A stretch of 64,000 bases of DNA from positions 124,001 to 188,000 of the forward strand of contig PQAL01000018.1 in assembly GCA_003105035.1 (NCBI GenBank), in the 5' to 3' direction. A model generated the notes under the pieces. The model was not told where the DNA came from, did no database searches, and saw only the letters and a list, made by a program, of their open reading frames with translations. Position numbers and translations under genes: made by a program. Source of the stretch: Anaerolineales bacterium (GTDB taxonomy: Bacteria; Chloroflexota; Anaerolineae; Anaerolineales; UBA4823). Every line of letters starts with the position of its first letter. Positions within the stretch are counted from its first letter, which is position 1. Below are positions 2,606 to 63,320 of the stretch, in pieces.

Positions 2606-2608
2606 AAC

Positions 2609-27252: not shown

Positions 27253-27259
27253 ATATCAC

Positions 27260-45633: not shown

Positions 45634-46418
45634 GTATAAAACTGGGTCTTCGCTAAGAAAATAGCCGAGGATAAGCAGTCTAACTGGTTGTAGAGATTGA
45701 TGCAGAAGGCATAGGGATCGATGACCACCAAGCCATATGTATTAGGCTCGACAACTGGAAAAAGCTCGGCTGGTCCGATCGTCTTACCGAACTCGATAAG
45801 GTTATTGGCAATCTTGTCTAATTGATCTCGAGACATGTCCTTACGATTACATTCCGGATTCCATAATATGACATATTTATCGCTTGCATGCCAGTAGTAA
45901 CAATCTGGTTATACTGTATCGCGAATTATGCGTCTTTGCCTTCCATAATGCCGGATGAAGATTGAGCTTAGTAAGTCCTCGTAGCGTTGTTTTTCCGTGC
46001 ATCCAGGCTCACGAAGATTCCTGGGTTTCTGTCGAGAGAAGCCGATATCCTCCGAGGCAACCAGTAGTAGGCACATCTACTCACAGGTAATCACGAAAAT
46101 TTTGTTCCCTTTTTTTCACTACTCGCTCTACCAGGTTAGTTGCTTTCGCCCTTCATTTTGATTTTAACTGTAACAAATCCTTCGCCCAACTTTACTAATT
46201 ATCCAACCACAAATTTTCTACATTAGAATTTTAGCTACCCCTTTTTTGTTAACCTCATGTGCTCTATAATCTGAGAGGAAAACGTTTACGATTGCTTGTT
46301 TTTCTCAATTCCTTATAACTCGTTCATATCGTTGATATACTATTACGGGATCTAGATTTCCCAGTAAAATAACTACTATGAGACCAGTACCAATTGAAAT
46401 CTGGAGAGATTGCAAAAA
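45634..46418. other. Gap with decayed minus-strand coding fragments
   Basis: No intact gene. Besides the fragment at 45650-45836, the minus strand reads about 45 sensible residues near 45900-46060 (SRQKPRNLREPGCTEKQRYE), which may be another piece of lost gene. 46060-46400 is AT-rich and should hold the promoter of the methylase gene. Confidence 0.4.
45650..45836 (-). pseudogene. N-terminal fragment of a lost gene, possibly HhH-GPD type
   Basis: The frame starts DQLDKIANNLIEFGKTIG and continues VEPNTYGLVVIDPYAFCINL, then loses any protein-like character. The opening resembles N-termini of small HhH-GPD base-excision proteins (an L-x-E-F-G helix followed by P-x-A-F). It points away from its neighbours and looks like the remains of a deleted gene. 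Low certainty. Confidence 0.35.
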
Positions 46419-47474
46419 GTGAAAGGATATACTGTAGTCGAGATGTTCGCTGGGGTAGGGGGAATGACACATGGCTTCCTCTTGGAAGGTTTTCCCGTTG
46501 TGGCAGGTTTCGATTCAGACGAGAATTGTAAATACCCTTATGAGGCTAATAACCCCGGTTCTAGATTCAATTTGAAGAAGATTGAAGAAACAACCCCCAA
46601 TGAGATACTGAATCTATTTCCCGAAAATCATAACAAAATTTTCGTCGGGTGTGCTCCTTGTCAACCTTATTCGTCTTATACCAAGAAGAAAAATAGTCCA
46701 GGAGAGAAATGGAAATTGATTGATCTATTTGGAGATTTAATCTGCAGTATTAAACCCGAGGTCGTATCGATGGAGAACGTCCCCGATTTAGTGCGCTACG
46801 AAAAAGGAAGAGTTTACGATGCATTCGTGACAAAATTGAAGCAAGTTGGTTATTATATTTCGGAATATCCCGAGGTATTCTGCCCTCAGTATGGGATCCC
46901 TCAAATACGCACTCGCCTCATTTTTTTTGCATCTAAATTTGGAAAAGTGAATCTCGAAGATCCTCAATATCCTTCCGATAAATATAAGACAGTCAGGGAT
47001 ACGATTTATCATCTTGAGCACATTGAAGCTGGAGAGATCAGTAAAGTGGATCCGATCCACAGGTCGAGTAGATTATCTGAAATCAATCTGCGCCGGATCA
47101 GATCTTCTTACCCAGGGGGAACCTGGAGGGATTGGAGGGAAGATCTGATTGCTGCTTGCCACAAGAAAGCATCTGGAGCATCGTATAGAAGCGTTTATGG
47201 TCGGATGTCTTGGGATCAACCTTCTCCGACGATCACCACAGAATGCCACGGGTATGGAAATGGTAGGTTCGGTCACCCCGAACAAAATAGAGCGATTTCA
47301 CTTAGAGAAGCAGCCCTATTACAGACTTTTCCAGCCGATTACAAATTCGTAGAACCTGGAAAACCTGTTTATTTCGATGCAGTTGCAAGACTGATTGGGA
47401 ATGCGGTACCTGTAGATCTGGGTAGGGTTATTGCACGAAGTATAAGGCGCCACTTGGAGAAATATGATGGATGA
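46419..47474 (+). CDS. C5-cytosine DNA methyltransferase
   Basis: 351 residues from a GTG at 46419, placed 11 nt after the GGAGAG site; a TTG at 46410 is too close to it. Motif I is VEMFAGVGGMTHGF, motif IV GCAPCQPYSSY with the catalytic cysteine, motif VI MENVPDL, motif VIII QIRTRLIFF, and motif X GNAVPVDLGRVIA. The target-recognition region is short. It methylates cytosine in the site cut by the partner enzyme, whose gene overlaps it by 11 nt. Confidence 0.9.
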   Translation: MKGYTVVEMFAGVGGMTHGFLLEGFPVVAGFDSDENCKYPYEANNPGSRFNLKKIEETTPNEILNLFPENHNKIFVGCAPCQPYSSYTKKKNSPGEKWKLIDLFGDLICSIKPEVVSMENVPDLVRYEKGRVYDAFVTKLKQVGYYISEYPEVFCPQYGIPQIRTRLIFFASKFGKVNLEDPQYPSDKYKTVRDTIYHLEHIEAGEISKVDPIHRSSRLSEINLRRIRSSYPGGTWRDWREDLIAACHKKASGASYRSVYGRMSWDQPSPTITTECHGYGNGRFGHPEQNRAISLREAALLQTFPADYKFVEPGKPVYFDAVARLIGNAVPVDLGRVIARSIRRHLEKYDG

Positions 47475-49416
47475 ATCTAGCACCCACAAATATGAGATGA
47501 CGATAACCCTAGATGCCCTCGAACATCTGGGTGTAGGACTATATAGTAACGTGCCTGCTGTCCTATCAGAAGTAGTAGCCAATTCCTACGATGCTGATGC
47601 ATCCAGAGTAGATATCGAAATCGATTCGTCAAAAGGCGAGATCGCCATCCTCGATGATGGCCACGGGATGTCATCGGAAGAATTGAACTCTAGATATTTG
47701 ACTGTTGGTTATCTCAGGAGAAAGCACGAACCTATCGTCACTCCAAAGTATGGTCGTAAGGTCATGGGAAGGAAAGGAATTGGAAAACTATCGGTTTTCT
47801 CTATAGCGAATACGGTCGAAGTCCAGAGTGTCAAAGATGGGGATAGAAGCGGATTCATCATGGATGTCGACGATATGGAGAAGCAGCTCACAGGAGGTAA
47901 TAAATATTATCCAGAACCGTTAGAACCAGGTCTAATTGTTATCGAAACTGGAACGAAGATTGTCTTGCGGAATCTCAAGAAGAACATTAGTGCATTAGAA
48001 ACATCGATGAGGAGAAGACTCGCTCGTAGATTTAGCATCATCGGCCTTCAGTACCATTTCGAAGTGTTCGTCGATGGCGAATCAATATCGGCGAAAGATA
48101 GAGATTTCTTTCCTAAGATCGAATTCCTCTGGTATTTCGGGAAAAAAAGTGAAGAATATCTTAAAGAATGTCCTAATTTACAATCCTCTAAACTATTAGA
48201 TGACGTGGTCGATAGAACTAAAAGATATAAGGTCGAAGGATGGTTAGGTACAGTGAAGACACAGGATGATATCGACGAGCAAAATAACGCAATCGTCGTT
48301 TTCGCACGAGGGAAATTGATCCAAGAAGACGTTCTAAAGGATCTTAAAGAGGGTGGTGTCTTTTCGAAGTATTTGATTGGTGAAATCGATGCTGAATTCA
48401 TGGATGATGAAGAGCAGGCAGATCTCGTTACTAGTGATAGGCAACACGTCAAAGAAGACGATCCTCGTTACGAAGCCGTCAAAAAATTCCTAAGTGATTC
48501 TTTGGACACTGTAAATACCGATTGGGGCAAATTTCGATCAAAAATTGCAGAAAAGAAAGCACTGGAAAATCCCGCGATCAAAGAGTGGTTTTTGAAAATT
48601 GGTAAGGATCAGAAAGAGATCGCAAAAAAGCTATTCACAAGAATCGAATCTTTGAAGGGATTAGACGACGAATCGAAACGTGAACTATATAGATCTAGTA
48701 TCCTCGCTTTCGAAAGATTGAGATTGACTGATTCTTTGAGTACGTTCGAACTAATACAGGATGAAAACGACTTTGCGATTATAAAAGGATTTTTCGATGG
48801 CATCGACGAGATCGAACGTGTTCAGTACCACACCATCGTAAAAGGGCGTTTGGCAGTAATCCAGAAGCTAGTAAAACTAGCTGATAGTCAGCCATCAGTG
48901 AAGGAGAGGGTCCTTCAAGAGCATATCTTCGACCACTTGTGGTTGCTCCATCCCTCATGGGATAGAGCATCGACGAATCAAAGGATTGAGCAATCAGTTA
49001 CAAAAGAATTCAACGCCGTCACTGCGAAATTGACTAAAGAGGAGAAAGAAGGCAGGATCGACATACGGTACAAAACTGCAGCAGGAAAACACATTATCGT
49101 TGAATTGAAGAAATACGATCGGAAGGTAACCGTAGATGAATTAATCCCTCAAATCAGGAAATATCGGAATGCATTGGAAAAATGTTTAAAATCCCACTTA
49201 CCTGATGAGAAGCCTATAATTGAATCCATAATCATCCTCGGAGATCATCCTGAACCAAAGAGTCAACCTGAGACTAATATTCAGCATTTATCCTTGGAAG
49301 GAGCTCGATATGTTCTTTACGATCAACTAATTACAGATGCATTGCAAGGTTATCAAGAATATATCGAAAAAGATAAAGCAGTGTCGGAACTATTAAATAT
49401 AGTGGATAAAATATGA
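47464..49416 (+). CDS. GHKL-ATPase restriction protein, BbrUII/HgiDII-like
   Basis: 650 residues; starts at ATGATG inside the end of the methylase gene. The N-terminal half is a GHKL ATPase: LSEVVANSYDADAS (N box), AILDDGHGMSSEEL (G1), GRKVMGRKGIGKLSVFSIA (G2 with lid). The C-terminal third contains a nuclease-like element (GRIDIRYKTAAGKHIIVELK: D, then E-L-K) in the PD-(D/E)XK order. This combination next to an m5C methylase is what is annotated as the BbrUII/HgiDII restriction family. Expected to cut unmodified DNA in an ATP-dependent way. Confidence 0.72.
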   Translation: MMDESSTHKYEMTITLDALEHLGVGLYSNVPAVLSEVVANSYDADASRVDIEIDSSKGEIAILDDGHGMSSEELNSRYLTVGYLRRKHEPIVTPKYGRKVMGRKGIGKLSVFSIANTVEVQSVKDGDRSGFIMDVDDMEKQLTGGNKYYPEPLEPGLIVIETGTKIVLRNLKKNISALETSMRRRLARRFSIIGLQYHFEVFVDGESISAKDRDFFPKIEFLWYFGKKSEEYLKECPNLQSSKLLDDVVDRTKRYKVEGWLGTVKTQDDIDEQNNAIVVFARGKLIQEDVLKDLKEGGVFSKYLIGEIDAEFMDDEEQADLVTSDRQHVKEDDPRYEAVKKFLSDSLDTVNTDWGKFRSKIAEKKALENPAIKEWFLKIGKDQKEIAKKLFTRIESLKGLDDESKRELYRSSILAFERLRLTDSLSTFELIQDENDFAIIKGFFDGIDEIERVQYHTIVKGRLAVIQKLVKLADSQPSVKERVLQEHIFDHLWLLHPSWDRASTNQRIEQSVTKEFNAVTAKLTKEEKEGRIDIRYKTAAGKHIIVELKKYDRKVTVDELIPQIRKYRNALEKCLKSHLPDEKPIIESIIILGDHPEPKSQPETNIQHLSLEGARYVLYDQLITDALQGYQEYIEKDKAVSELLNIVDKI

Positions 49417-49425
49417 GATACGAGG

Positions 49426-50121
49426 ATGGAAAATGGAAGCTCATATTTTCCAAACGTCGATAAAATAACGGATGAGCTCGTTAGATCATTTGGGCGTCCT
49501 TCGTTAGGTAATCGACCAGATCCATTCGAAGAATTATTGTATATCATTCTCTCGTCGAGAACCCCTCCGAATAATTATTCCACCGCATTCGAATCCTTGT
49601 TACGTCAGTTTCCAGATCACGATGATCTTGGATCTGCTAGGATCGAAGACGTCAGTGACGCTATCAAACTCGGTGGTCTTCAACATAAGAAGGCCTCATA
49701 CATCATCGAGTCTTCAGCGAAATTAAATAAACTATTTGGTACGGTTACTCTTGAACCTTTGAGGAAAATGACTAGAGACGAGGTCGAGAAATTATTGACA
49801 TCTCTTCCAGGAATTAGCCTCAAAACAGCCCGATGTGTGATGGTGTACTCTCTCGATATTCCAGTCTTCCCTGTCGATGTGCACTGTTTTCGTGTTTCCA
49901 AGCGTTTGGGTTGGGCGAAAGAAGGCGAAAAACTTACTGATAAAAATGTAAACAAATTACAAGCCTCGATTCCAGAAAAATATCGTAAGGATCTGCACGT
50001 CGGGATGATAATGCTTAGTCGAACCTATTGCACTCCTAAATCCCCAAAGTGCGAATCGTGCCCAATCGTTTTATACTGCCCTACCGGTAGAATAAACACT
50101 AAAAATAGCATCAACGATTGA
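49426..50121 (+). CDS. Endonuclease III-like DNA glycosylase of the restriction locus
   Basis: 231 residues. Helix-hairpin-helix LPGISLKTARC is followed by FPVDVHCFRVSKRLG. The lysine and aspartate equivalent to Nth K120 and D138 are both present, so it should be a bifunctional glycosylase/lyase rather than a MIG-type monofunctional enzyme with tyrosine. The C-terminus has a complete 4Fe-4S site, C-x6-C-x2-C-x5-C (CTPKSPKCESCPIVLYC). Located 9 nt after the restriction gene. A role in repairing T:G mismatches made by m5C deamination, in place of Vsr, is inferred from context. Confidence 0.78.
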   Translation: MENGSSYFPNVDKITDELVRSFGRPSLGNRPDPFEELLYIILSSRTPPNNYSTAFESLLRQFPDHDDLGSARIEDVSDAIKLGGLQHKKASYIIESSAKLNKLFGTVTLEPLRKMTRDEVEKLLTSLPGISLKTARCVMVYSLDIPVFPVDVHCFRVSKRLGWAKEGEKLTDKNVNKLQASIPEKYRKDLHVGMIMLSRTYCTPKSPKCESCPIVLYCPTGRINTKNSIND

Positions 50122-52594: not shown

Positions 52595-53470
52595 TTACCC
52601 CTTTATCCCGGTAAATGTGATACCCTGGATGAAGTATCGTTGAGCAATGAAGAAGATGATTACCATGGGCAACAACGCAACTATTGAAGCTGCCATTAAA
52701 TATCCCCAGTGCACGGTATATGTGCTTCGAAAGAAATTTAGTCCCAAGGCGATGGTATAGTTTGATTGTTTGTGTAAGAACACTAATGGATACAAGAAAT
52801 CGTTCCATACTCCTTGAAAGTTAAATATGGCGATGGCGGCTAAAGCTGGCTTTGAGAGCGGTAAAATCACCTTCCATAGGATTTGCAATCGGTTAGCACC
52901 GTCGATCAAGGCGGCTTCTTCAAGCTCGAGGGGAATATTCATAAAAAACTGTCTTAATAAAAAGATATAAAATGGACTGCCAAAGAAGGCTGGCACGATC
53001 AGTGGCAAGTAAGAGTCTATCCATCCAAGCGTATTAAATTCAATATATAACGGAATAATCCGGACAGGTTCAACCAGCATCATGGTCGATAACATGAGGA
53101 TGAAGAAGAAATTCTTGCCTGGCGCGCGTAGCCGTGCAAATCCATATGCGATTATGGTACAGGATAAAAGATTTCCAAGGATAGCCAGGGCAGCGATAAA
53201 AAGGGTGTTGAGGGCAAAACGTCCAAAAGGCACATAGGTCAGCGCTTCCGGATAATTTTGCCAGCGCAATGGACTGGGAATCCACTGGGGGGGATACTGC
53301 ATGACCTGGTAATCAGATTTGAAAGAGGAGGACAAAGCCCAAAAGAGTGGCAGGATAAACATCAAAGAGCCCACAATCAACATCAAATAAACGATCAGGT
53401 TCCAGATATTCCTACGCCAATGAGCAGGGTGCAAATAGTCTTGCTCATTAAATGAATTTCTAGAAGCCAT
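52595..53470 (-). CDS. Carbohydrate ABC transporter permease, MalG type
   Basis: 291 residues, six predicted membrane helices (for example VYLMLIVGSLMFILPLFWAL at the N-terminus). The cytoplasmic EAA loop ELEEAALIDGANRLQILWKV carries the ATPase contact sequence of binding-protein-dependent permeases. Together with the upstream MalF-type permease it forms the membrane channel of a sugar uptake system. It starts 3 nt after that gene. No ATPase gene is nearby, so a shared MsmK-like ATPase is likely. Confidence 0.88.
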   Translation of the reverse strand: MASRNSFNEQDYLHPAHWRRNIWNLIVYLMLIVGSLMFILPLFWALSSSFKSDYQVMQYPPQWIPSPLRWQNYPEALTYVPFGRFALNTLFIAALAILGNLLSCTIIAYGFARLRAPGKNFFFILMLSTMMLVEPVRIIPLYIEFNTLGWIDSYLPLIVPAFFGSPFYIFLLRQFFMNIPLELEEAALIDGANRLQILWKVILPLSKPALAAIAIFNFQGVWNDFLYPLVFLHKQSNYTIALGLNFFRSTYTVHWGYLMAASIVALLPMVIIFFIAQRYFIQGITFTGIKG

Positions 53471-53473
53471 CCA

Positions 53474-54403
53474 TCATTCTCCGATACTGCGATAAAACAC
53501 CCATTTACCTGAGGTCATGAAGATCACTAATGTACAGCCTAAAACGACTAAGAAAAGCACCCAGGCCATGGCTGATGCATACCCCATCTGAAGGTGTTCA
53601 AAAGCCTTGCGATACAGATAGAGCACATAAAAGAGGGTCGAATCCAACGGTCCACCGTTTGTTGCTACAAAAGCGTTGGTAAAGGTTTGAAAAGTCAGAA
53701 TAATGCCGAAAATCAAGTTGAATAGAAGCGATGGCGTCAGCAGGGGCAAAGTTACTTTCCAGAATTTATTCCAACGATTCGCACCATCAATCTCTGCAAC
53801 TTCATACAGAACTATAGGTATATCCTGTAACCCTGCGAGGAATATTATCATTGTCCGGCCAACGCCCCATAAAGACATCATGATCAAGGCGCTCAATGCC
53901 CATTTAGGGTCCAGCAGCCAACGAGGTCCCTGAATACCAATATAAGAGAGCAGGGTATTGATCAAGCCATGTTGAGGGTTGAACATCCACATCCACATTA
54001 CAACGTAGGCAACCCCGCTCAGCACGGATGGCAAATAATATACAGTTCTGAATACGCCGATTCCGCGTAACTTTTGATTAAGCAGGAGAGCCAGCGACAA
54101 GCCAAAAATCAAATCCATTGGTACGTAGACCAAGGTATATACCAGGGTAACCTGGAATGATTTGAGTGCCAGCGTATCCCTGGTGAACAGGCGTATATAA
54201 TTGTCCATTCCTACAAACTGGGGTGAAGTCAGTAGATCCCATTCGGTCAAGCTGAAATAAAACGAGGCTAGGATAGGCCCCAGATAAAATAAAATGAAAC
54301 CAATTAGCCATGGAGAGATGCATAGATAGAAGAAGACAGCCTCACGCTGACGCAATTTTAGCCTGGAGATACGCAGGCCGGTTTTGATTGAGGCCAAGTT
54401 CAT
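53474..54403 (-). CDS. Carbohydrate ABC transporter permease, MalF/UgpA type
   Basis: 309 residues from the ATG at 54403. A longer frame to 54460 would begin inside the 11-bp inverted repeat that separates it from the binding-protein gene, so I prefer the inner start, although no clear ribosome site precedes either. Six membrane helices are predicted, with the EAA loop YEVAEIDGANRWNKFWKVTL. Partner of the MalG-type permease for ATP-driven sugar import; substrate unknown. Confidence 0.85.
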   Translation of the reverse strand: MNLASIKTGLRISRLKLRQREAVFFYLCISPWLIGFILFYLGPILASFYFSLTEWDLLTSPQFVGMDNYIRLFTRDTLALKSFQVTLVYTLVYVPMDLIFGLSLALLLNQKLRGIGVFRTVYYLPSVLSGVAYVVMWMWMFNPQHGLINTLLSYIGIQGPRWLLDPKWALSALIMMSLWGVGRTMIIFLAGLQDIPIVLYEVAEIDGANRWNKFWKVTLPLLTPSLLFNLIFGIILTFQTFTNAFVATNGGPLDSTLFYVLYLYRKAFEHLQMGYASAMAWVLFLVVLGCTLVIFMTSGKWVFYRSIGE

Positions 54404-54442
54404 GGGAGGAAATAAACGAAGGGATGCCTTAGGGGGGTAGGT

Positions 54443-54472
54443 GGGAGTGCCCATGTCCATGTGGGCACTCCC
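54443..54472. repeat. Perfect 11-bp inverted repeat between binding protein and permease genes
   Basis: GGGAGTGCCCA and TGGGCACTCCC with an 8-nt loop, no T-run. Such hairpins often stabilise the abundant binding-protein part of the message or partly stop transcription before the permeases. Confidence 0.75.
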
Positions 54473-54485
54473 AGGTCAGAAATTG

Positions 54486-55865
54486 TTATTTCAGTTTTTC
54501 ATCCAATGCAGCTTGAGCTTCCTGGGCGGCGGTTTGCATAACTTGTGCTACATCCGCACTAGGATCGATCAATACCGTCTCAAGAGCTTTACGCAGTGCA
54601 GGGTCGCCTGTTTCTCCCCAGTAATCGGTGGATACATACGCCCGAGGGGCCAGATAATCAAGCCCACGGATCCAGGCACCTTCAATCGGATCAGTTGTCA
54701 TACCGGCAGCTTCTGCCACGGCGGCGACAGGCGGGATAGCGTGTAATTTCCAGATTTCCGAGCCTTCAGCACCAACATAGAACTTCAGGAAGCGCCAGGC
54801 AGCTTCAGGATTCTTTGAGCCACTGAAGATGCCAAAGCCTCCCCAGAATAGCACGTTGGCTTTCACATCACCAGCGGGTACTTCTACTGTACCCAGGTCC
54901 ACGTTCGGATTGCTGAGCAGGCCTGTTTGGGGCCAGCGACCGAACAGGCGCATGGCAGCTTTCCCTGACTCGAACTCGGGGTTGCCACCAGCCCACAAGT
55001 TAAAATCAGCAGGTGGAGGGGCTACTTTGTACTTGTTATATAAATCAGCATAGAACTGCACTGCCTTTATCGTCGCTGGAGAATCCATGTAGCCAACATA
55101 GCTCGTGCCATCAGGGCTGATCAGGCTACCGCCAGCAGCTGCCACCCAGTATTCAAATCCGCTGGTCCAATTGGCAGACAGTTGAGCACCCCAGATATCG
55201 GTCTGACCATCGCCATCGACATCCTTGGTAAGCTCTTGTGCTGTTGCCAGGAAATCATCCCAGGTCCAATCATCTTTTGGATAAGCTACGTTGTACTCAT
55301 CAAAAATCTTCTTATTGTAATAGACGGCCAGAGGCGAGAAGTCCTTGGGCAGGAAATATTGTACGCCCTGGTATTTACCAGGATCCAACGTACCCGGTAG
55401 GTAAATACTGGTATCTAAAGCATAATTCCCACCAATAAAATCATCCAGGGGCAGGAACCCTCCCTTTGAAACAAACATAGGAACGGCATCATCGCCAATC
55501 TGGATAATGTCTGGTGCGTCACCAGCTGCAATTTGGGTCAACAGGCGGGTGTAATAGTCATTTCCTGAAACAGCCTCAAGCTGCACCAGGATATCAGGAT
55601 TTTGTTTTTCAAACTCGGCAATGATCTCTTGATGTGGGTTTAGTCCTTCACCACTGTCGCCAGTGCCCACTCGTAAAATGATTTTACTGCCTTCGGGAAG
55701 AGGCGCTGAGGTGGGAGTAACAACGACTTCTTTGGTAACCTCCACTGTTTTTTCTATGGTGATAACTTCTGGTGTCGGTGTTGTTGCCTGTGCACAACCT
55801 GCAATGAGAGAGGCAAGCATTATGCCCGTTAAAAGAAAAATGGGAATACGTAGGTACTTTTTCAC
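54486..55865 (-). CDS. Sugar ABC transporter substrate-binding lipoprotein
   Basis: 459 residues; GTG start after AAAAGGAGGATG. Signal peptide with lipobox LIAGC (lipidated C24), then a Thr/Pro/Val-rich linker. The mature part has the cluster B solute-binding fold: FEKQNPDILVQLE, IAAGDAPDIIQIGDD, YYNKKIFDEYNV and FWGGFGIFSG. Anchored outside the membrane, it delivers a sugar or oligosaccharide to the two permeases. First gene of the three-gene operon. Confidence 0.9.
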   Translation of the reverse strand: MKKYLRIPIFLLTGIMLASLIAGCAQATTPTPEVITIEKTVEVTKEVVVTPTSAPLPEGSKIILRVGTGDSGEGLNPHQEIIAEFEKQNPDILVQLEAVSGNDYYTRLLTQIAAGDAPDIIQIGDDAVPMFVSKGGFLPLDDFIGGNYALDTSIYLPGTLDPGKYQGVQYFLPKDFSPLAVYYNKKIFDEYNVAYPKDDWTWDDFLATAQELTKDVDGDGQTDIWGAQLSANWTSGFEYWVAAAGGSLISPDGTSYVGYMDSPATIKAVQFYADLYNKYKVAPPPADFNLWAGGNPEFESGKAAMRLFGRWPQTGLLSNPNVDLGTVEVPAGDVKANVLFWGGFGIFSGSKNPEAAWRFLKFYVGAEGSEIWKLHAIPPVAAVAEAAGMTTDPIEGAWIRGLDYLAPRAYVSTDYWGETGDPALRKALETVLIDPSADVAQVMQTAAQEAQAALDEKLK

Positions 55866-56285
55866 AGAATCATCCTCCTTTTATGAAATGATCAACTGCT
55901 ATTAGAAAATTTTTGTCAATTGAAAAAGAATATTTCCACCAGGATTTCTCTGTGGTAACCACCTCCTAAGTCTGATTATCGAGGAGCTTTAAATAATTTA
56001 GGATCTACATATAATCATAATGCAAAAACTGTTTTTTTACTATCTTAACTATTTTTTTGATACGGTAACGAATTTTCCAGGGTAAACTGGTTTTAATCAA
56101 TAAAGCCAATCTCTAAGGCATCAAGTCAGTAATCACCGAAAGATGATTCTTTCCATCCGGAATTCTGGTAAAGGGAATCAAGTGGGCAACATTAATTTAA
56201 TATTTGACAGCGAAAAAGTAGATTTGGATGGTATTATTCTTCTGAGAATAGTATCTCTACAAAAAATCTTGGGATAGTCATAGAA
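55866..56285. other. Divergent intergenic region
   Basis: Promoters for the sugar transporter (leftward) and the heliorhodopsin operon (rightward) should lie here. A TTGACA at 56204 has no properly spaced -10. GGTAACC sits in a short palindrome near 55954. No copy of the LacI palindrome of 62263 is seen. Confidence 0.45.
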
Positions 56286-56756
56286 ATGACATTTCCTATA
56301 GTAACCGGATCCAACTTGCTCAGAGAGAAGCTGACCCTGCCTCGGGATTTCCAAGGCAGATTCAATCTTGTTTTTATCGCTTTTGAACAGTGGCAGCAGA
56401 CGGAGGTAGATTCCTGGATGGCATTGGTCAGGGAAATGGAAGAGCAGGTTGACTATCTGGCTTACTATGAGCTGCCAACCATACAGACCAGGAATTCTTT
56501 ATACAAGATGTTTATCAATGAAGGCATGCGAGCTGGCACCCCTAATCCAAAAACCCGTGAACGTACGATCACGCTGTATCTCGATAAAAGGGATTTTCGC
56601 TCCGCTTTGGATATGCCGGATGAAGAGCACATATACTTATTAGTTGTAGACCGCCAGGGGTATGAGTACTTCCGCACTCGCGGTCCATATACTCAGGAGG
56701 GGGACATGGCTCTACGTCAGGTACTTCTCCAACTCGCCCCAAAAGCGAAGGAATGA
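56286..56756 (+). CDS. Unknown thioredoxin-like protein, first gene of heliorhodopsin operon
   Basis: 156 residues. The order LPRDFQGRFNLVFIAFEQ, DSWMALVREMEEQ and IYLLVVDRQGYEYFRTRG fits a thioredoxin fold without the C-x-x-C pair, similar in plan to mitochondrial Atp10-like proteins. No signal peptide, so cytoplasmic. The stop codon is directly followed by the TTG of the next gene, arguing for coexpression. Function unknown. Confidence 0.5.
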   Translation: MTFPIVTGSNLLREKLTLPRDFQGRFNLVFIAFEQWQQTEVDSWMALVREMEEQVDYLAYYELPTIQTRNSLYKMFINEGMRAGTPNPKTRERTITLYLDKRDFRSALDMPDEEHIYLLVVDRQGYEYFRTRGPYTQEGDMALRQVLLQLAPKAKE

Positions 56757-58304
56757 TTGGAACGGGTCGCAAGCGATGAACCTCGTACTCAATGGCAAAG
56801 AATGGTGTCGGAGAACAACAAAGATCGTCTCATTTTGGTGACCGGCGCAACCGGGTATATTGGAGGGCGACTTGTTCCCCGGTTGTTAAAGCCAGGATAC
56901 CGCGTCCGTTGCCTGGTGCGCGATCCGGCCCCCTTGCATAGATATGCCTGGCACAGTGCCGTCGAGACCGTTACAGGAGACGTGCTCCAGCCAGATACTC
57001 TTGGGCCAGCCATGCAAGGAGTATCCGCGGCTTACTACTTGATCCACAGCATGTCAGCCGGCTCTGGCTTTCACCAGCTTGACCTAGTTGCAGCCCATAA
57101 TTTTGGCACGGCTGCCTGCGAGGCTGGAGTCGAGCAGCTCATCTATCTTGGTGGTCTGGCTGAAACCACATCCAATTTATCGCAACACCTGCGCTCGCGC
57201 CTGCAAACGGGTGACGCTCTGCGTAGTTCCGGTATCCCAGTAACTGAATTTCGAGCTGGAGTCATTGTGGGTTCTGGCAGCATCTCCTTTGAAATGATCC
57301 GATATCTGACCGAGCGTGTACCGGTAATGATCTGCCCACGCTGGGTCTATACGCCCACTCAACCGATTGGGATTGGGGAAGTTTTGGAATACCTGGCGAC
57401 AGCGCTAGATGTGCCGGAGAGCTCTGGGCGCATTATCGAGGTCGGAGGATCTGAAATCATTACTTACGGAAAAATGATGATAGTTTATGCCGAGGTTCGG
57501 GGTCTTAAACGCTGGATGGTGCCTGTACCGGTTCTAACGCCGCGTTTATCATCCTACTGGGTCAACTTGGTCACTCCCATCTCATCAGCCCTGGCACGCC
57601 CACTCATAGAAGGATTGCGCACCGAAAGCACAGTGCACGATCCGATTGCCAGGCAGCTATTCCCCCACGTCCAGCCGGTAGATTATCGTACATCGGTAGA
57701 GCGGGCACTCACCGACTTGGAACCGGGGAAGATTGATTCCACCTGGATTGACTACCTAAGTGCCACATGGGGTGATGGAACTGCCGTAACCATGACTGTT
57801 CACGAAGGCATGATTTTGGAGTTCCACAAGCGTGTTGTCCCATCTTCTGCAGAAACTGTTTATCATACCTTCACCGGCCTGGGGGGAAAGCGTAGATGGC
57901 CTGCTATTACGTGGGTATGGAAGCTGCGCGGCTTTCTGGACCAGATATTTGGTGGAGTTGGCTTTCGGCGTGAGCGTCGCGATCCTGATGAATTGCAGGT
58001 GGGAGATGCACTTGATTTCTGGCGGGTTGAAACCCTGGAGCCGGGACATTTGTTGAGATTGCGTAGTGAGATGAAAATGCCAGGAATCGCCTGGCTAGAG
58101 TGGCATGTCACCCCTAGAGGTAAGGAAAGTGCATTGTTATTGCAAACTTCTTTCTTTGCTCCCAAGGGAATGTTGGGATGGTTGTACTGGTATGCGGTCT
58201 ACCCACTTCATAAATTGATTTATAAGAAGCTCATCGATCAGATCGCAGCTCACGCAACAAGCTCAAAACTCAAAGAAGACAGTATACCCAAGGAGCTTAT
58301 ATAG
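56757..58304 (+). CDS. SDR-type NAD(P)-binding protein with DUF2867 domain
   Basis: 515 residues. Extended SDR N-terminus with TGATGYIGGRLVPRLL and the typical LVRDP after strand 2. The active-site tyrosine motif is replaced by the atypical pattern of NmrA-like members. From about 350 on comes a DUF2867-type domain (PSSAETVYHTFTGLGGKRRW), a START-like cavity fold. Start TTG at 56757; ATG at 56802 is an alternative just before the glycine motif. The families SDR-DUF2867, DUF2177 and DUF1295 recur together in proteobacterial light or singlet-oxygen regulons, as far as I recall, which fits the heliorhodopsin downstream. Confidence 0.7.
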   Translation: MERVASDEPRTQWQRMVSENNKDRLILVTGATGYIGGRLVPRLLKPGYRVRCLVRDPAPLHRYAWHSAVETVTGDVLQPDTLGPAMQGVSAAYYLIHSMSAGSGFHQLDLVAAHNFGTAACEAGVEQLIYLGGLAETTSNLSQHLRSRLQTGDALRSSGIPVTEFRAGVIVGSGSISFEMIRYLTERVPVMICPRWVYTPTQPIGIGEVLEYLATALDVPESSGRIIEVGGSEIITYGKMMIVYAEVRGLKRWMVPVPVLTPRLSSYWVNLVTPISSALARPLIEGLRTESTVHDPIARQLFPHVQPVDYRTSVERALTDLEPGKIDSTWIDYLSATWGDGTAVTMTVHEGMILEFHKRVVPSSAETVYHTFTGLGGKRRWPAITWVWKLRGFLDQIFGGVGFRRERRDPDELQVGDALDFWRVETLEPGHLLRLRSEMKMPGIAWLEWHVTPRGKESALLLQTSFFAPKGMLGWLYWYAVYPLHKLIYKKLIDQIAAHATSSKLKEDSIPKELI

Positions 58305-58705
58305 TGCGATCCTATATCAAACTATACCTTATTACTCTGATTACATTCTTCGTGATCGATATAGTCTGGCTTGGACTTGTAGCAGGAACACTTTATCGGA
58401 GTTATCTTGGTTTCTTGTTTGCTCCCACAACCAATTGGGTCGCCGCGGTACTTTTCTACCTGCTGTTTATCCTGGGGATCCTGGTATTTGTTGTCGTGCC
58501 TGGGCTGCAAGATAGCTCACTTAAGGCAACCCTTCTCCGGGCGGTATTGTTTGGGCTGGTTACCTATGCCACTTACGACCTGACCAATCTAGCAACCGTG
58601 AAAAACTGGCCTGTACTGATCACCGTGATAGACATGGCCTGGGGAATGGTCTTGAGCGTTCTGGTAAGTTACATCAGTTTTCTAGCGGGCAAGCGGCTAA
58701 ATTAA
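58304..58705 (+). CDS. DUF2177 family membrane protein
   Basis: 133 residues, four membrane helices. FVIDIVWLGLVAGTLYRSYL at the N-terminus and FGLVTYATYDLTNLATVKNW in the third helix are the DUF2177 hallmarks. GTG start overlapping the upstream stop by one base, with AAGGAG 8 nt before it. Function unknown. Its position between the SDR-DUF2867 gene and heliorhodopsin, 48 bases apart, suggests a shared membrane or light-stress role. Confidence 0.78.
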   Translation: MRSYIKLYLITLITFFVIDIVWLGLVAGTLYRSYLGFLFAPTTNWVAAVLFYLLFILGILVFVVVPGLQDSSLKATLLRAVLFGLVTYATYDLTNLATVKNWPVLITVIDMAWGMVLSVLVSYISFLAGKRLN

Positions 58706-58753
58706 TATGATAATCAGTAATAAATAAATCTCTTTATATGAGGAGGATATTAA

Positions 58754-59560
58754 ATGGTAACCACAAGTAACGAAACAGATGGTTCAACAAGTGTAATGGA
58801 GCGCAAGTATACCGGACTGCGACGCTTCAACCTGGGAATGGGAATCCTGCACCTTATCCAGGGTATCTTTATGATCGCGGTCAGCAATGACACCACTTAC
58901 CCCATCTATACTAATTTCCTGAACTTCGATATCGCTACTCGTTCACTGAAACCTAACGCTGAGCTAGTTTATGAGGTTCCGTTTGGTATCGCCGTGGCTT
59001 TTTTCCTGTTGATTTCAGCTGTAGCACACTTCTACCTGGCTACAATTGGGTACCAGCGCTATGTGAAAAATTTGAAGACGGGCATGAACTCCACTCGCTT
59101 TTATGAATATGCGCTAAGTTCTTCATTGATGATCGTATTAATCGGCATGCTAGTCGGCATCTGGGATCTTGGCGCAATTATCTTAATCTTCGCCGTGAAC
59201 GCCACGATGAATCTGTTTGGCATCATGATGGAGCTGCACAACCAGCACACCGAGAAAACAAACTGGACGGCTTTTATCTATGGATGCATTGCTGGGATTG
59301 TCCCATGGATCGTGATCATGCTCTACTTCGTGGGCGCGGTCAATTCTGGGGAAGCCAAACCACCACCGTTTGTTTACACCATTGTCCCGACATTGTTTGT
59401 TTTTTTCAATATCTTCGCCATCAACATGGTTCTTCAGTATAAGAAGATCGGCCCATGGAAGGATTACCTGTTCGGGGAGCGCGTCTATATCATCCTAAGC
59501 CTGTCGGCGAAGACCGTCCTTGCCTGGCTGATCTGGGCTGGCACCCTGGCACCTGTATAG
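58754..59560 (+). CDS. Heliorhodopsin
   Basis: 268 residues, seven hydrophobic helices. The first is RRFNLGMGILHLIQGIFM, the heliorhodopsin form of helix 1. Helix 3 has RFYEYALSSSLM with the counterion glutamate E118; helix 4-5 has GIWDLGAIILIFAVNATMN. Helix 7 has LSLSAKTVLAWLIWAGTL with retinal Schiff-base lysine K253. Heliorhodopsins are inverted-topology retinal photoreceptors with a slow photocycle and no ion transport in the cases known. GAGGAGG ribosome site. No carotenoid or retinal genes are in the window. Last gene of the apparent four-gene operon. Confidence 0.92.
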   Translation: MVTTSNETDGSTSVMERKYTGLRRFNLGMGILHLIQGIFMIAVSNDTTYPIYTNFLNFDIATRSLKPNAELVYEVPFGIAVAFFLLISAVAHFYLATIGYQRYVKNLKTGMNSTRFYEYALSSSLMIVLIGMLVGIWDLGAIILIFAVNATMNLFGIMMELHNQHTEKTNWTAFIYGCIAGIVPWIVIMLYFVGAVNSGEAKPPPFVYTIVPTLFVFFNIFAINMVLQYKKIGPWKDYLFGERVYIILSLSAKTVLAWLIWAGTLAPV

Positions 59561-59628
59561 TAAAAAACCGGTTATAAGCCATTGCATGATAACGCTGATT
59601 CGAAAAGGTGAAATTATCGGTTGATAAG

Positions 59629-59664
59629 AGAGGGGTGGTAAGATTCGTTATGATCCACCCCTCT
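59629..59664 (+). terminator. Terminator-like hairpin after heliorhodopsin
   Basis: Perfect 10-bp stem AGAGGGGTGG/CCACCCCTCT with a 16-nt loop, 68 bases past the stop codon; the following T-run is short. The remaining 59665-59961 gap should hold the alternative oxidase promoter. Confidence 0.5.
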
Positions 59665-59961
59665 TGAGGCACCAGAGTGGTCTCTAAAATGTAATTTTGT
59701 CCCACTTCCAAGTAAGTTGCCGAAATGCATATTAGATGGCGCGAGGAGAAACCATGAAACGGACGGATTTTGGTGCATAATAGGTGTGTAATTCTAAATG
59801 CTAGCCTTAAAAATGACCGAATAATGGCATTGCCAGCCTGAAGCAATTGTAAACAACCAGAAATTTATTCGTCATCCTATTGTTATGGCATAATATTCAC
59901 ATATTTTCACATAGTAGCCATAGAACGTACCAGAGCAGGTAAACTTTATAGGAGACCCTCA

Positions 59962-60576
59962 ATGACTACTGAAATTTCGCTGAAACGACATCATTCACCT
60001 GATAGTATTTCGGATCGATTTGCACTTGCTGTCACCAAGTTGGCGCGCTTCTTCGCAGATATTTTTTTTGCTCGTCGCTATGGTAACCGAGCGGTTGTCC
60101 TGGAAACGGTTGCTGCAGTCCCGGGCATGGTTGGAGGCGTTTTACAGCATTTGCGTGCTTTGCGTCGCATGGAAAGCGATAAAGGCTGGATCCGTACCTT
60201 GCTCGAAGAAGCCGAAAACGAGCGCATGCACTTGATGACCTTTATAAACTTCACCCAACCGACGCGGTTGGAGCGTCTGATAATTCTAGTGGCTCAGGGA
60301 ATTTTCTTCAACGGATTCTTTCTACTATATTTAATATCGTCAAGAACTGCTCATCGTGTCGTGGGTTATTTTGAAGAGGAAGCAATCCATAGCTACACAG
60401 AGTACCTTAATGATATAGACAGTGGAAAAATAGCCAACGCCCCTGCACCGAAAATAGCAATTGATTATTGGAACCTGGCATTGGATTCAAGGTTGAGAGA
60501 CGTGATAATTGTCGTCCGCGCAGATGAGAGCCATCACCGCGATGTAAATCATGGATTCGCTGATGAGTTATCGTGA
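59962..60576 (+). CDS. Alternative oxidase (AOX)
   Basis: 204 residues. All diiron ligands of the AOX family are visible: E48 ([10 protein letters not shown]), E87-x2-H90 ([11 protein letters not shown]), the glutamate cluster 138-140 ([11 protein letters not shown]) and E189-x2-H192 ([14 protein letters not shown]). The protein lacks the long N-terminal extension of plant and protist enzymes. It would be a monotopic membrane quinol oxidase reducing O2 to water without proton pumping. ATAGGAGACC ribosome site. It stands alone between heliorhodopsin and a DUF1295 gene. Rare outside Proteobacteria and eukaryotes. Confidence 0.9.
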
Positions 60577-60644
60577 TACCAAAAAACCAAACAAGCATCA
60601 CACTCGCGTACTGTGCAGCGTTATGAAACGCTGCTCAACTGTGA

Positions 60645-60878
60645 CCGGATTATTCATGCTATAGACTCATTCATGTCTATTTCCCGTTTTCAGATTCCCT
60701 ATCATTCTCAGTATATTTGATATCAACATGGCTCTACAGGGTAAGCAAATTGGTCTACGTAAGTATCGCCTCTTCGAAGAATAAGCTAGCCTGGGTGATT
60801 GGAGCCGGCACCCTGGCTCTGATTAGTCTGTTTAGGTTTTGGCTTGATTCACGTGAACCCGGCTGGATACTTAAATAA
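60645..60878 (+). pseudogene. Possible heliorhodopsin 3' fragment
   Basis: The frame contains LVYVSIASSKNKLAWVIGAG then TLALI. It aligns with helix 7 of the intact protein (RVYIILSLSAKTVLAWLIWAG then TLAPV has the same order, split here), including the position of the Schiff-base lysine. It has no start codon in a sensible place and runs on to a basic tail. The remainder of 60577-61092 shows no other feature. Confidence 0.4.
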
Positions 60879-61092
60879 TTGGCCGATTATATGGAGAGGG
60901 GTTATACGAACCGTCCTGGCCTTACTTAACTTAAGGCACCAAATTGATTACAATTTTGAGGTTTCGTCGAGCTTCATGATAAGCTGCTGTAATTCGTGTA
61001 AAAAAATGAGATAAGACCCCATGGTTTAAAGATTATTGGTGTACAAGTGGGATAAATTGATAATGTAAGCATACATACTGATTGAATCATGA

Positions 61093-61995
61093 GTGAAACA
61101 AACAGGTATTTATATCGTGAAATCATCTGATCGTAATGCTTTCTTCGTTCTGCCAGTTTTGATTGTGATCGGCATGTTGGTGGCGATTGCCGGTAGCCAG
61201 GGTGGCAGCCAGATCGCAGGGATTCCGGTCTTTGCCCTGCTGGTTGGCCTGACCATTCTTATCCAATGGTTGGTCTTTATCCCGTCGTACTTACGGCAAA
61301 CCGAGAAGTTCTTTGACCTGACAGGCAGCCTCACGTATATTACTGTCAGCACACTGGCCCTGTTATTAAGCACCGGCTTGGATGGCAGGGCGATCCTGGT
61401 GTGGGCTCTAGTCGTGATCTGGGCGGTCCGATTGGGTACCTTCCTGTTCAGGCGCATACGAAAAGCGGGTAAGGATGATCGTTTCGATGAGATCAAACCT
61501 TCATTTATCCGTTTCCTGAACGTATGGACGATGCAAGGCTTGTGGGTTACCTTATCCATGGTAGGTGTGCTGGTCACGATTACCACAACCAATCGCAAAG
61601 AGTTGGACCTATTTGCCTTGATTGGCTTCCTGGTGTGGGTTTTCGGTTTTACGCTGGAAGTCATAGCTGATCATCAAAAAAGCCGCTTCAATGCCGACTC
61701 CAATAACAAGGGCAAGTTCATTCGCTCGGGTTTGTGGTCTCGCTCCCGCCACCCGAACTACTTTGGAGAGATCGTTTTATGGATTGGCATCATGCTCATC
61801 ACACTGCCGGTTTTGCAGGGCTGGCAGTGGGTGGCCCTGATCTCTCCAATATTTGTCACCCTGCTTCTGACTCGCGTTAGTGGCATTCCACTGCTTGAAA
61901 AGAAGGCTGACCAGATATGGGGCGGCCAGGCAGATTATGAAGCCTATAAAAAACGAACGCCGGTATTGATTCCCAAGTTTAACGCGCACCGGTAG
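61093..61995 (+). CDS. DUF1295 membrane protein (steroid reductase/ICMT-like)
   Basis: 300 residues, several membrane helices. The C-terminal signature GLWSRSRHPNYFGEIVLWIG, with R-H-P-N-Y, is shared by DUF1295, isoprenylcysteine methyltransferase and 5-alpha reductase families and binds a nucleotide cofactor in the membrane. Substrate unknown, probably a lipid or isoprenoid. GTG start at 61093; GTG at 61117 is possible and neither has a strong ribosome site. Located 516 bases after the AOX gene. Confidence 0.78.
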   Translation: MKQTGIYIVKSSDRNAFFVLPVLIVIGMLVAIAGSQGGSQIAGIPVFALLVGLTILIQWLVFIPSYLRQTEKFFDLTGSLTYITVSTLALLLSTGLDGRAILVWALVVIWAVRLGTFLFRRIRKAGKDDRFDEIKPSFIRFLNVWTMQGLWVTLSMVGVLVTITTTNRKELDLFALIGFLVWVFGFTLEVIADHQKSRFNADSNNKGKFIRSGLWSRSRHPNYFGEIVLWIGIMLITLPVLQGWQWVALISPIFVTLLLTRVSGIPLLEKKADQIWGGQADYEAYKKRTPVLIPKFNAHR

Positions 61996-62250
61996 TCTCA
62001 TTTCTAATTTTGATCTGTCTGCTACGATGAGCAGTTAGCTTGGCAAAGTCTGGCACCATCTTCCTGCAAGCGAAGTACTCGATCGATTGGACAGTTTAAA
62101 TCTGAGCCAACCGGCTGTACCTAAATTCGCGTACTAAGGTGTATTTGGGGAAATTCATGTGAATAAATTTGGCTACCCTCAGGTTATTACAATTTCTCAA
62201 GTAAAAAAGATATTCAGCTTCAGGAGCTAGTAAAAGGGGAGTAAATCCTT

Positions 62251-62280
62251 TATAATATACTTTACTGAAACGTTTCAGTA
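62251..62280 (+). promoter_or_regulatory. Promoter with LacI-type operator, probable autoregulation
   Basis: TATAAT (62251-62256) is followed at once by the perfect 18-bp palindrome TACTGAAACGTTTCAGTA (62263-62280), whose core GAAACGTTTC is a typical LacI/GalR-family operator. It lies 17 bases before the regulator's start codon. The -35 region is poor. Confidence 0.82.
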
Positions 62281-62297
62281 TTCATTAGGATTGTTAA

Positions 62298-63320
62298 ATG
62301 CCTATCACGATTCGAGATATTGCGAAAAAAATGGGATTATCTATTGGGGCGGTTTCACGCGCCCTGGATGGTTATCCAGATATCTCCGTTGAAACACGGC
62401 AGAGGGTGATCCGAGTAGCCCATGAGATGGGGTATGTTCCAAACCAGGCTGCGCGCCATCTGAGACGGGGAAAAGCAGATGCAGTCGGGTATATTTTGCC
62501 AGCTAATACACCTCGGTTTGCCGATCCATTCTTCTCTGAATTTATTGCCGGGTTAGGTGACGAGACTGCACTACATCCTTACGATCTACTTATATCTATT
62601 GCACCACCTGGTGAAGAAGCAGAAAAACGCATGTACCAGAACTGGGTACAAAGCCGCAAGGTGGATGGTTTTATCCTGACCCATCTGCACTTGCATGATT
62701 GGCGGGTGAAGTTCCTATCAAAACAAGGGGTGCCTTATTCTACCCTGGAAAACACCCTGGATGAAGACGATTATCCACGGGTAGAGGTCAACCGGCAAGG
62801 AGGCATGTCGGAACTTATAGCGCACCTGGATAAGCACGGATTCCGCCGTATCGCCTTTGTGGGCGGGCCGTCTGAATTGAAAATTCAGGCTGACCAATAT
62901 GATGGTTACCGGCAAGGCTTGGAAAGATCAGAAATACCATACGACCTCACCCTGGTCATAGGCGGAGATCTGACCAGTTCTGGTGGTTATCTCGCAACAA
63001 AACGTATGCTTTCCATTCCAGACCCACCTGATGCCATCGTCTGTATCAATGACGAAACAGCGTTCGGGGTCCTTCATGCAGCCCATGAAATGGATTTACA
63101 AATTGGTCGAGATTTAGCTGTAGCGGGATTTGATGGTGTGCAGGCTTCTAGATATACTGAGCCCCCCTTGACTACACTGGATATTCCGATTTATGACATA
63201 GCTCGCCAACTAGTAAGGATGTTAATCTCTGAAATCCATGGAATTGTTATCCCCGAACGCCGGGTGGTGTATCAGCCCAAGCTGCTGATCCGCGAATCCA
63301 CCGGTGGAAATCACTCCTGA
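62298..63320 (+). CDS. LacI/GalR family transcriptional regulator
   Basis: 340 residues. N-terminal HTH ITIRDIAKKMGLSIGAVSRA with hinge helix region NQAARHLRRGKA, then the periplasmic-binding-protein-like effector domain (RIAFVGGPSELKIQADQYDG, AVAGFDGVQASRY). It binds DNA as a dimer and responds to a sugar or related ligand. The palindrome in its own promoter suggests autorepression. Its other target is not visible; the nearest sugar transporter (52.6-55.9 kb) has no matching operator. Confidence 0.9.
   Translation: MPITIRDIAKKMGLSIGAVSRALDGYPDISVETRQRVIRVAHEMGYVPNQAARHLRRGKADAVGYILPANTPRFADPFFSEFIAGLGDETALHPYDLLISIAPPGEEAEKRMYQNWVQSRKVDGFILTHLHLHDWRVKFLSKQGVPYSTLENTLDEDDYPRVEVNRQGGMSELIAHLDKHGFRRIAFVGGPSELKIQADQYDGYRQGLERSEIPYDLTLVIGGDLTSSGGYLATKRMLSIPDPPDAIVCINDETAFGVLHAAHEMDLQIGRDLAVAGFDGVQASRYTEPPLTTLDIPIYDIARQLVRMLISEIHGIVIPERRVVYQPKLLIRESTGGNHS

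Follow-up and report, generated by a model that had tools for sequence, protein, structure and literature searches.

The question raised by this locus is whether a heliorhodopsin (HeR) gene of an Anaerolineales bacterium belongs, together with its neighbours, to a module that serves light and oxygen stress. Within the window (the whole stretch of 64,000 nucleotides that was analysed), the initial annotation had described a closely packed thioredoxin-like, SDR-DUF2867, DUF2177 and HeR gene row, followed by an alternative oxidase (AOX) and a DUF1295 protein, and had taken HeR to sense light in a membrane-lipid and oxygen protection programme. All six genes were recovered in place on the plus strand and mostly as named, and the locus reads as follows:

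56286..56756, plus strand: cysteine-free protein of thioredoxin fold (ATP10-like), 156 aa; an ORF call that opens the four-gene unit
56757..58304, plus strand: fusion of SDR (NmrA/NAD_binding_10) and DUF2867 (PF11066, 98 bits); start codon uncertain (TTG listed)
58304..58705, plus strand: DUF2177, predicted membrane protein (147 bits)
58754..59560, plus strand: heliorhodopsin HeR1, 268 aa (PF18761, 338 bits; NCBIfam NF038020, 367 bits)
59629-59638 / 59655-59664, plus strand: perfect 10-bp inverted repeat with a 16-nt loop, 3' of HeR1, read from the sequence
59962..60576, plus strand: AOX, a diiron quinol oxidase (PF01786, 282 bits)
60705..60830, plus strand: decayed remains of the C-terminal part of another HeR1-type heliorhodopsin (blastn)
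61093..61995, plus strand: DUF1295 membrane protein (steroid-5-alpha-reductase / ICMT-like; 219 bits)

The first four genes follow one another directly (0 bp), then with an overlap of 1 bp, then after 48 bp, as close as had been claimed, and are one tight co-directional unit. The gap from the upstream neighbour widens to 401 bp before AOX and to 516 bp before DUF1295, so that these two genes probably form transcription units of their own; their place in the order of the module stands, but with such gaps the locus is not a single six-gene HeR operon. The inverted repeat 3' of HeR1 is a possible transcript end, although it has no T-run, and was not listed by a terminator scan with a loop limit of 8. 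A scan of the module for promoters and terminators gave no clear result: it listed 16 promoters and 8 terminators, where shuffled sequence gave 11.4 and 6.1.

HeR1 scores above the family cut-offs and carries the retinal-lysine motif SxxxK (SLSAK, aligned to 6is6) in its last helix, a feature by which heliorhodopsins are defined (PMC8612252), and on these grounds it is assigned as a heliorhodopsin; its relatives in the PDB are 6is6 and 7clj. The initial annotation had overlooked the heliorhodopsin remnant that separates AOX from DUF1295. Blastn gives this remnant 71% identity across 72 nt and 58% across 330 nt, the similarity extends through non-coding DNA to 61091, and its score of 51 bits compares with at most 25.4 across 40 shuffles; judged by this similarity, it is a dead HeR copy that marks a past local duplication. 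Another heliorhodopsin of the same genome, HeR2, is clustered with a MerR-B12 protein (CarH/LitR-type), a photolyase, and CrtB-like and CrtI-like genes. The remnant matches HeR1-type genes and gave no match to the HeR2 region at E 0.001, and a recent HeR1/HeR2 duplication was rejected, as the tree places the two in different clades. In this quick tree HeR1 groups with the AOX-linked locus L068 and with L053, L054 and L055, with moderate support (SH-aLRT 87), and L084 and L077 fall outside the clade. No RPE65 enzyme was found, nor was Blh in a search that had no positive control. The function of heliorhodopsins is still largely open, and genomic neighbours are a source of candidate partners, here DUF2177 as the nearest and AOX as very rare in the phylum.

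We surveyed the neighbours of HeR at 85 loci, including the window, over 3 kb either way; many contigs are short and all counts are lower bounds. A first ORF pass left 10 of the 85 loci without a HeR ORF because of longer overlapping ORFs, and all 85 were redone by tblastn. The pairs DUF2177-HeR, HeR-DUF1295, Trx-fold-HeR and AOX-HeR recur in relatives, as the proposed co-occurrence would have it, but the full six-gene set was found in none of the other loci of the set. Four loci from 17 other HeR genomes (L024, L032, L033 and L038), apparently outside the set, have no window-type neighbour; gene calls are poor in L024 and L038, which lack a called HeR ORF. Among the 11 genomes with DUF2177, seven carry HeR, compared with 18 of all 101 (Fisher p 4e-4, or 1.4e-3 once the window's genome is left out, ignoring phylogeny). 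Photolyase, carotenoid or CarH/LitR genes stand near HeR, near DUF2177 or near the Trx-fold gene in some relatives, and to this extent the idea of a light regulon gains support, but no CarH-type operator was found in the window itself, and several of the DUF2177 genes that lie away from HeR loci show no light-related neighbour.

The first gene of the row is thioredoxin-like in fold only. Its protein had no match in a Pfam search; three Trx-fold homologues match PF05176 (ATP10), one of them above the Pfam cut-off. The best of five AlphaFold models (pLDDT 81, pTM 0.80; the other four have pLDDT 41-62) retrieves thioredoxin and peroxiredoxin folds with Foldseek at a TM of about 0.5-0.6. The protein has no cysteine at all, and hence no CxxC active site of a classical thioredoxin, and alignment A1 contains no invariant cysteine; a thiol redox role is unlikely for a protein without cysteine. 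A Trx-fold gene lies within 3 kb of HeR in five of the 85 loci, window counted, and co-occurrence of the two across genomes is weak by a Fisher test that ignores phylogeny (p 0.05; 0.13 leaving out the window's genome). DUF2867, present in 29 of 101 genomes, occurs in all nine that have the Trx-fold gene (Fisher p 5e-6, again ignoring phylogeny), and a close SDR-DUF2867 homologue near HeR was seen in the window only (1/85 loci). In genome G012 a DPRP photolyase, an FAD oxidase, a Trx-fold and an SDR-DUF2867 gene share one strand within 10 kb.

The genome's own candidate CarH-type regulator (L020, 8218-9528, minus strand) combines MerR, B12-binding_2 and B12-binding domains, and has GxxW, EH and GxxxP, with AxxH where the published signature has GxxH. 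CarH-type homologues occur in 65 of the 101 genomes at a loose limit; strong matches (E 3e-69 or better) occur in 25, seven of them with HeR, whereas HeR is present in 11 of the remaining 76. By these searches CarH and HeR are thus not tightly tied. The CarH operator of Thermus and Bacillus has been described as 11-bp direct repeats, nAnnTnnACAn (PMC8156234). Regions upstream of HeR were long enough at 83 of the 85 loci, and removal of the wrongly long L067 left 82; L067 contributes one of 18 regions and three of 25 half-sites, and is still included in the half-site simulation. Exact tandem repeats were found in 3 of the 82 regions, against none in 60 simulated sets and none at any other spacing between 9 and 24. 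With one mismatch allowed they occur in 6 of 82, where simulation gave 0.93 and other spacings 0-3; the test was not blind, as the HeR2 and L054 sequences had been seen beforehand. The three exact loci, all predicted operators, are the genome's own HeR2 promoter (L020, minus strand, 10479), L053 and L054. Among 98 loci, which were fetched around these genes and include loci of the 82-region test, nine exact matches occur at spacing 11, while 16 other spacings average 1.8, and eight of the nine sit 5' of a HeR, DUF2177 or Trx-fold gene.

A second matrix, built from seven arrays, was scored on 25 regions, and only L092, L117 and L062, whose HeR upstream regions were not used in building it, beat 100 of 100 shuffles. 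L055 was marginal (P 0.05 and 0.02), and the DUF2177-HeR gap of L068 gave P 0.02 for three repeats and 0.26 for two. Neither strand of the window contains an exact operator of this type, and none of five module upstream regions beat its shuffles (P 0.22-0.92); hits of a first matrix upstream of window genes were set aside as no proof, since that matrix was built from sites picked by eye. The LitR pattern TGTACA-N12-TGTACA was likewise rejected for the window and HeR2 upstream regions, where the few pairs each have 3 of 12 mismatches; single exact TGTACA half-sites lie upstream of DUF1295 and of HeR2. The predicted CarH operators at some HeR promoters offer a direct, testable link from a B12 photoreceptor to heliorhodopsin expression.

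Since HeR genes of several relatives stand beside DNA-repair, carotenoid and B12 light-switch genes, the set probably belongs to a light-stress response, and we lean slightly towards reading the window cluster as its lineage-specific version. In the dark, an adenosylcobalamin-bound CarH-type repressor would block such promoters, and light would break its Co-C bond and free the genes. The HeR then produced would sit in the membrane and work together with DUF2177, encoded next to it; electrons from the quinol pool would pass through AOX to oxygen with no protons pumped, and the SDR and DUF1295 proteins would act on membrane isoprenoids or lipids. Because published HeR partners include glutamine synthetase and photolyase as well as an ABC transporter (PMC11109279), HeR may act by protein contact. 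From these gene and operator patterns we read it as an output of the B12 light switch, not necessarily its sensor; CarH-type control of the window's own promoter, where no such operator was found, is a candidate only. A bolder version, which we consider improbable, would make the Anaerolineae HeR a CarH-switched effector, that is, two photoreceptors in series, gating respiratory electron flow in the membrane together with DUF2177; AOX would be the electron drain used in the light by an oxygen-sensitive cell whose respiration otherwise depends on cytochrome bd. The genome contains cytochrome bd, and only short COX1-like frames were found in it, so that, of the anaerobic or microaerophilic host suggested earlier, a microaerophilic one is plausible.

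That these neighbours are shared merely by descent or chance, with no functional meaning, would fit the presence of several linked loci in one HeR clade, which makes the cases not all independent; yet the outer flanks of L055, L068, L084 and the window mostly differ, and HeR has a Trx-fold gene nearby in distant branches (L120, L101, L088, L069), as it has DUF1295-type genes in L132 and L079, which leaves neutral synteny a slim chance. We also think it rather unlikely, though less so, that HeR and DUF2177 together make a direct membrane pair, photoreceptor plus effector, outside any CarH regulon and with the other genes as passengers. DUF2177 is modelled as a small membrane protein of four long helices (pLDDT 82) and stands directly 5' of HeR on the same strand in all four intact cases (window, L055, L068 and L084, of 85 loci), and HeR-DUF2177 is already a published neighbour group (PMC11109279). 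Against such a unit, DUF2177 is absent within 10 kb of HeR in 81 of the 85 loci in the available sequence, some contigs ending close; only remnants of it survive at L053 and L054; and in G009 it has its own predicted CarH-type operator on a different contig from HeR.

The strongest competitor of the light-stress reading, to which we give a substantial but less than even chance, concerns AOX, which could be an NO- or cyanide-tolerant oxidase gained by horizontal transfer, which came to lie beside the HeR cluster and is unrelated to light, while the four-gene row and DUF1295 belong together. The diiron ligands of AOX are four Glu and two His; the window enzyme shares LET, ENERMH, EEEA and RADExxH with the solved mitochondrial chains 9kun and 9m2a (3vv9 is also among its structural matches), and by this alignment has the full ligand set. 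AOX is rare (1 of 101 relatives; 2 of 400 Chloroflexota genomes over the cut-off), has its own 401-bp leader, and lacks a CarH-type repeat on its 5' side in both the window and L068 (P 0.12 and 0.28 in the latter). Among 21 plasmid records with AOX, four were examined, and in each an Rrf2-type regulator lies within 5 kb; three of them also have a truncated haemoglobin and two a flavohaemoglobin, a nitrosative-stress setting. On the strength of these relatives, and of a third Chloroflexota AOX (G420) around which no HeR lies within about 10 kb, the idea that AOX generally serves as a light gene was rejected. Yet two of the three Chloroflexota AOX genes identified here, those of the window and L068 (2/85 loci within 3 kb), lie within 2.3 kb of an HeR1-clade gene with adjoining DUF2177, and the ten annotated genes of 52595-63320 include neither Rrf2 nor haemoglobin genes. 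The membership of AOX in the HeR set is thus weak, and no publication on an AOX-HeR link was found in the literature searched. DUF1295 lies within 3 kb of HeR in eight of the 85 loci, window counted, and about 70 bp 3' of HeR in L053 and L054.

For the preferred light-stress reading, known systems offer partial parallels. HeR neighbourhoods with DUF2177, SDR, MerR and photolyase are already published, the ten operon groups described in PMC11109279 including these and an alpha/beta hydrolase. HeR-DUF2177 recurs in the window, the hydrolase is added in L068 and L055, and MerR with photolyase accompanies the genome's own HeR2, whereas the window adds SDR-DUF2867, Trx-fold, AOX and DUF1295 genes, the last three in none of the ten groups as described there. 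The Pseudomonas LitR (PplR/PmlR) light regulon comprises phrB, SDR, FAD oxidoreductase, ufaM, cryB and folE (PMC9758184). SDR, photolyase and FAD oxidoreductase also surround HeR or Trx-fold genes in L068, L084 and L178, whereas neither a LitR gene nor its operator turned up in the window, and the regulon description names neither HeR nor AOX. Of the families that the initial annotation had assigned to LitR or ChrR regulons, SDR is thereby borne out, and DUF2177 and DUF1295 are not: no paper linking LitR with DUF2177 was found in the literature searched, the literature match for DUF1295 with singlet oxygen was for Chlamydomonas only, and the main text of the R. sphaeroides ChrR paper (PMC7380195) assigns UfaO to DUF1365 and nowhere mentions 'DUF1295'. 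The tandem repeats of the Thermus/Bacillus CarH operator have predicted counterparts at the genome's own HeR2 promoter and at some relatives' HeR, DUF2177 and Trx-fold genes, though not in the window. Finally, the proteobacterial plasmid AOX enzymes of Azospirillum, Sphingomonas and Polymorphobacter are 65-67% identical to that of the window, but their neighbours are Rrf2 and haemoglobin genes, whereas here they are HeR and DUF1295.

Open reading frame calls and family searches bore out the places and identities of the six genes at 56286-61995, which the initial annotation had read as a possible light/oxygen stress module with heliorhodopsin (HeR) as the light sensor; the source assembly comprises 4.45 Mb in 43 contigs.

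56286-56756, + strand, thioredoxin-fold (Trx-fold) protein
56757-58304, + strand, SDR-DUF2867 protein
58304-58705, + strand, DUF2177 protein
58754-59560, + strand, heliorhodopsin HeR1
59962-60576, + strand, alternative oxidase (AOX)
60705-61091, between AOX and DUF1295, decayed second HeR copy with downstream flank, by similarity to HeR1
61093-61995, + strand, DUF1295 protein

The first of these proteins is cysteine-free. HeR1 is full-length and typical of its family, with 6is6 and 7clj as its nearest solved structures. Nearly the whole of AOX aligns to solved mitochondrial AOX chains, and the motifs bearing the diiron ligands are preserved. Elsewhere in the window, where G+C is mostly lower beyond ~30 kb, a stretch at 17415-50121 carries defence-type genes:

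17415-22622, large DEAD helicase with an MZB domain
22972-25830, DpdE-like helicase
27188-31579, Eco57I-type methylase protein
46410-50121, C5 methylase and type II restriction-type genes

Of 101 genomes, 18 carry HeR, the window's own counted. HeR neighbours were examined by tblastn in 85 loci, made up of the best 80 of 266 places in a scan of genome contigs, the window, the second HeR locus of the same genome (L020) and three loci from further relatives. Within 3 kb of HeR, and with the window among them, DUF1295 was found in 8/85 loci, a Trx-fold gene in 5, DUF2177 in 4 (in all 4 immediately upstream of HeR on the same strand) and AOX in 2. The proposed grouping recurs in part: HeR with DUF2177, DUF1295, Trx-fold or AOX is found again, but SDR-DUF2867 lies that close only in the window (1/85). 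A LitR-type gene is within 3 kb in three loci, one being the second HeR of this genome and none the window. Loci L053 and L054 are without a DUF2177 gene, yet immediately before HeR they carry a remnant of its 3' end (72% over 123 nt at E 5e-16 and 69% over 93 nt at E 3e-8), pointing to loss of DUF2177 with HeR kept. Both belong to the HeR1 tree group, together with L055, L117, L037, L056 and L068 (SH-aLRT 87, quick search). Two loci have these gene orders:

L068: AOX, dienelactone-hydrolase-like, SOUL haem-binding, DUF2177, HeR, FMN reductase, FAD oxidase, GTP cyclohydrolase II, TspO-like (just below cut-off), DUF4345
L084: SDR, DPRP photolyase, DUF2177, HeR

L068 is the second locus joining AOX with HeR. 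AOX itself is rare, being found in 1/101 genomes (the window's own) and, above cut-off, in 2/400 Chloroflexota, plus one weak match with stops; that of L068 is a third Chloroflexota case, and two of the three are near HeR. The AOX of genome G420 has no HeR within ~10 kb. Window AOX is 79% identical to that of L068, 74% to that of G420 and 66-67% to three Alphaproteobacterial AOX. In G420 (L136) the gene follows, at 61 bp, an 858-aa gene that by eye resembles ribonucleotide reductase, and an NrdR-like gene, also named by eye, stands upstream.

The segment at 60705-61091 resembles the HeR1 3' end and downstream flank (71% over 72 nt, 58% over 330 nt), at 51 bits versus at most 25.4 in 40 shuffles. 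It also matches the HeR 3' ends of L053, L054 and L068, with no match to the genome's own second HeR region at E 0.001. In L053 and L054, DUF1295 stands ~70 bp behind HeR. Most simply, the arrangement would go back to an ancestral HeR-DUF1295 pair in which HeR was duplicated locally, with AOX lying between the two copies and the one on the DUF1295 side decaying.

Across genomes, and with phylogeny ignored, HeR is present in 7/11 DUF2177 genomes versus 18/101 overall (p 4e-4; 1.4e-3 without the window's genome) and co-occurs with SDR (p 0.008; 0.016) and, weakly, with Trx-fold (p 0.05; 0.13). All nine Trx-fold genomes also have DUF2867, versus 29/101 overall. Outside HeR loci, G012 carries on one strand a DPRP photolyase, FAD oxidase, DoxX/DUF417-like gene, Trx-fold gene, three further genes and SDR-DUF2867. 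G010 has a Trx-fold gene 2.5 kb from a DPRP photolyase and, at another place, a DUF2177 gene that converges with a TspO-like one. The other DUF2177 loci examined had none of such light-gene company, two being behind response-regulator genes.

The second heliorhodopsin, HeR2, falls in a separate clade from HeR1:

G000:C1:32598-33329, HeR2, ~60 bp from a MerR-B12 protein
L020 5450-13129 (G000:C1), HeR2 cluster with CarH-like regulator, photolyase and carotenoid genes

An MFS gene and CrtI/CrtB-like genes also lie in this stretch. Three elements of the published light-response signature, GxxW, EH and GxxxP, are present in the regulator, and GxxH is replaced by AxxH; GxxW-x9-EH is kept in 20/20 regulator loci checked, this one counted.

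HeR upstream regions are enriched in the half-site TRTACA (18/83 regions, one of which, L067, is wrongly long, versus 7.0 ± 2.6 simulated), and TATACA/TGTACA/TTTACA pairs up to 45 bp apart are spaced by 11 bp (3) and 22 bp (3) only. The published CarH repeat nAnnTnnACAn (PMC8156234) stands in exact tandem in 3/82 HeR upstream regions (L053, L054, L020) versus none in 60 simulated sets, and the regions hold no exact pair at any of the other spacings between 9 and 24. Allowing one mismatch raises the count to 6/82, versus 0.93 in simulation and 0-3 at the other spacings. At HeR2 the predicted operator overlaps TTGACA, with TACTAT 17 nt further on. A wider scan of 98 loci (1.36 Mb, both strands) gave 9 exact matches at spacing 11 versus 0-4 (mean 1.8) at 16 other spacings. 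Eight lie upstream of HeR (L053, L054, L020), DUF2177 or a Trx-fold gene; because the loci were fetched around these genes, the scan leans towards them somewhat, and the counts at other spacings offer a fairer control. Beyond the HeR cases, the matches are:

L168, 51-70 bp upstream of DUF2177
L088, 50-69 bp upstream of a Trx-fold gene, but pointing away from it
L180, three repeats ~350-450 bp upstream of a Trx-fold gene in a divergent region, ambiguous because nearer to the other gene of the pair
L084, the ninth match, away from HeR

In L168 (G009, 1666-4685) the DUF2177 gene behind the repeat is divergent from a PAS/response-regulator histidine kinase, and HeR was not seen in this 6-kb stretch. 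The window holds no exact tandem CarH-type repeat, and the upstream regions of its module score no higher than shuffles.

CarH-type homologues match in 65/101 genomes at E 1e-3, many only partially, and in 25 at E 3e-69 or better. HeR is present in 7 of these 25 versus 11/76 others, so the two are not tightly tied. The light-stress reading keeps its strength, since this recount and three additional operator regions, upstream of HeR in L092, L117 and L062, weigh on it in different directions. We interpret the window module as a set of light-stress genes, and some of their homologues appear, on sequence grounds, to be under CarH/LitR control; HeR may therefore be one of the outputs of light control, not the first sensor. 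HeR would work through DUF2177, and AOX would drain electrons in light. Cytochrome bd is encoded in the genome and the COX1-like frames found there are all short, in line with a microaerophilic cell. Neither Blh nor RPE65 enzymes were found in the genome, the RPE65 search alone having a positive control.

PMC11109279 describes groups of HeR neighbours that include DUF2177, SDR, MerR, photolyase and alpha/beta hydrolase, and PMC8612252 places HeR close to redox, photoprotection and two-component genes. A literature search found no paper combining heliorhodopsin and alternative oxidase; another, for any two of heliorhodopsin, LitR, CarH and cobalamin, had no heliorhodopsin paper among the matches listed, though one may stand further down. 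On these grounds the HeR-DUF2177 core is already known, and AOX, Trx-fold and DUF1295 as HeR neighbours, together with the predicted CarH-type operators, may be additions to the published picture.
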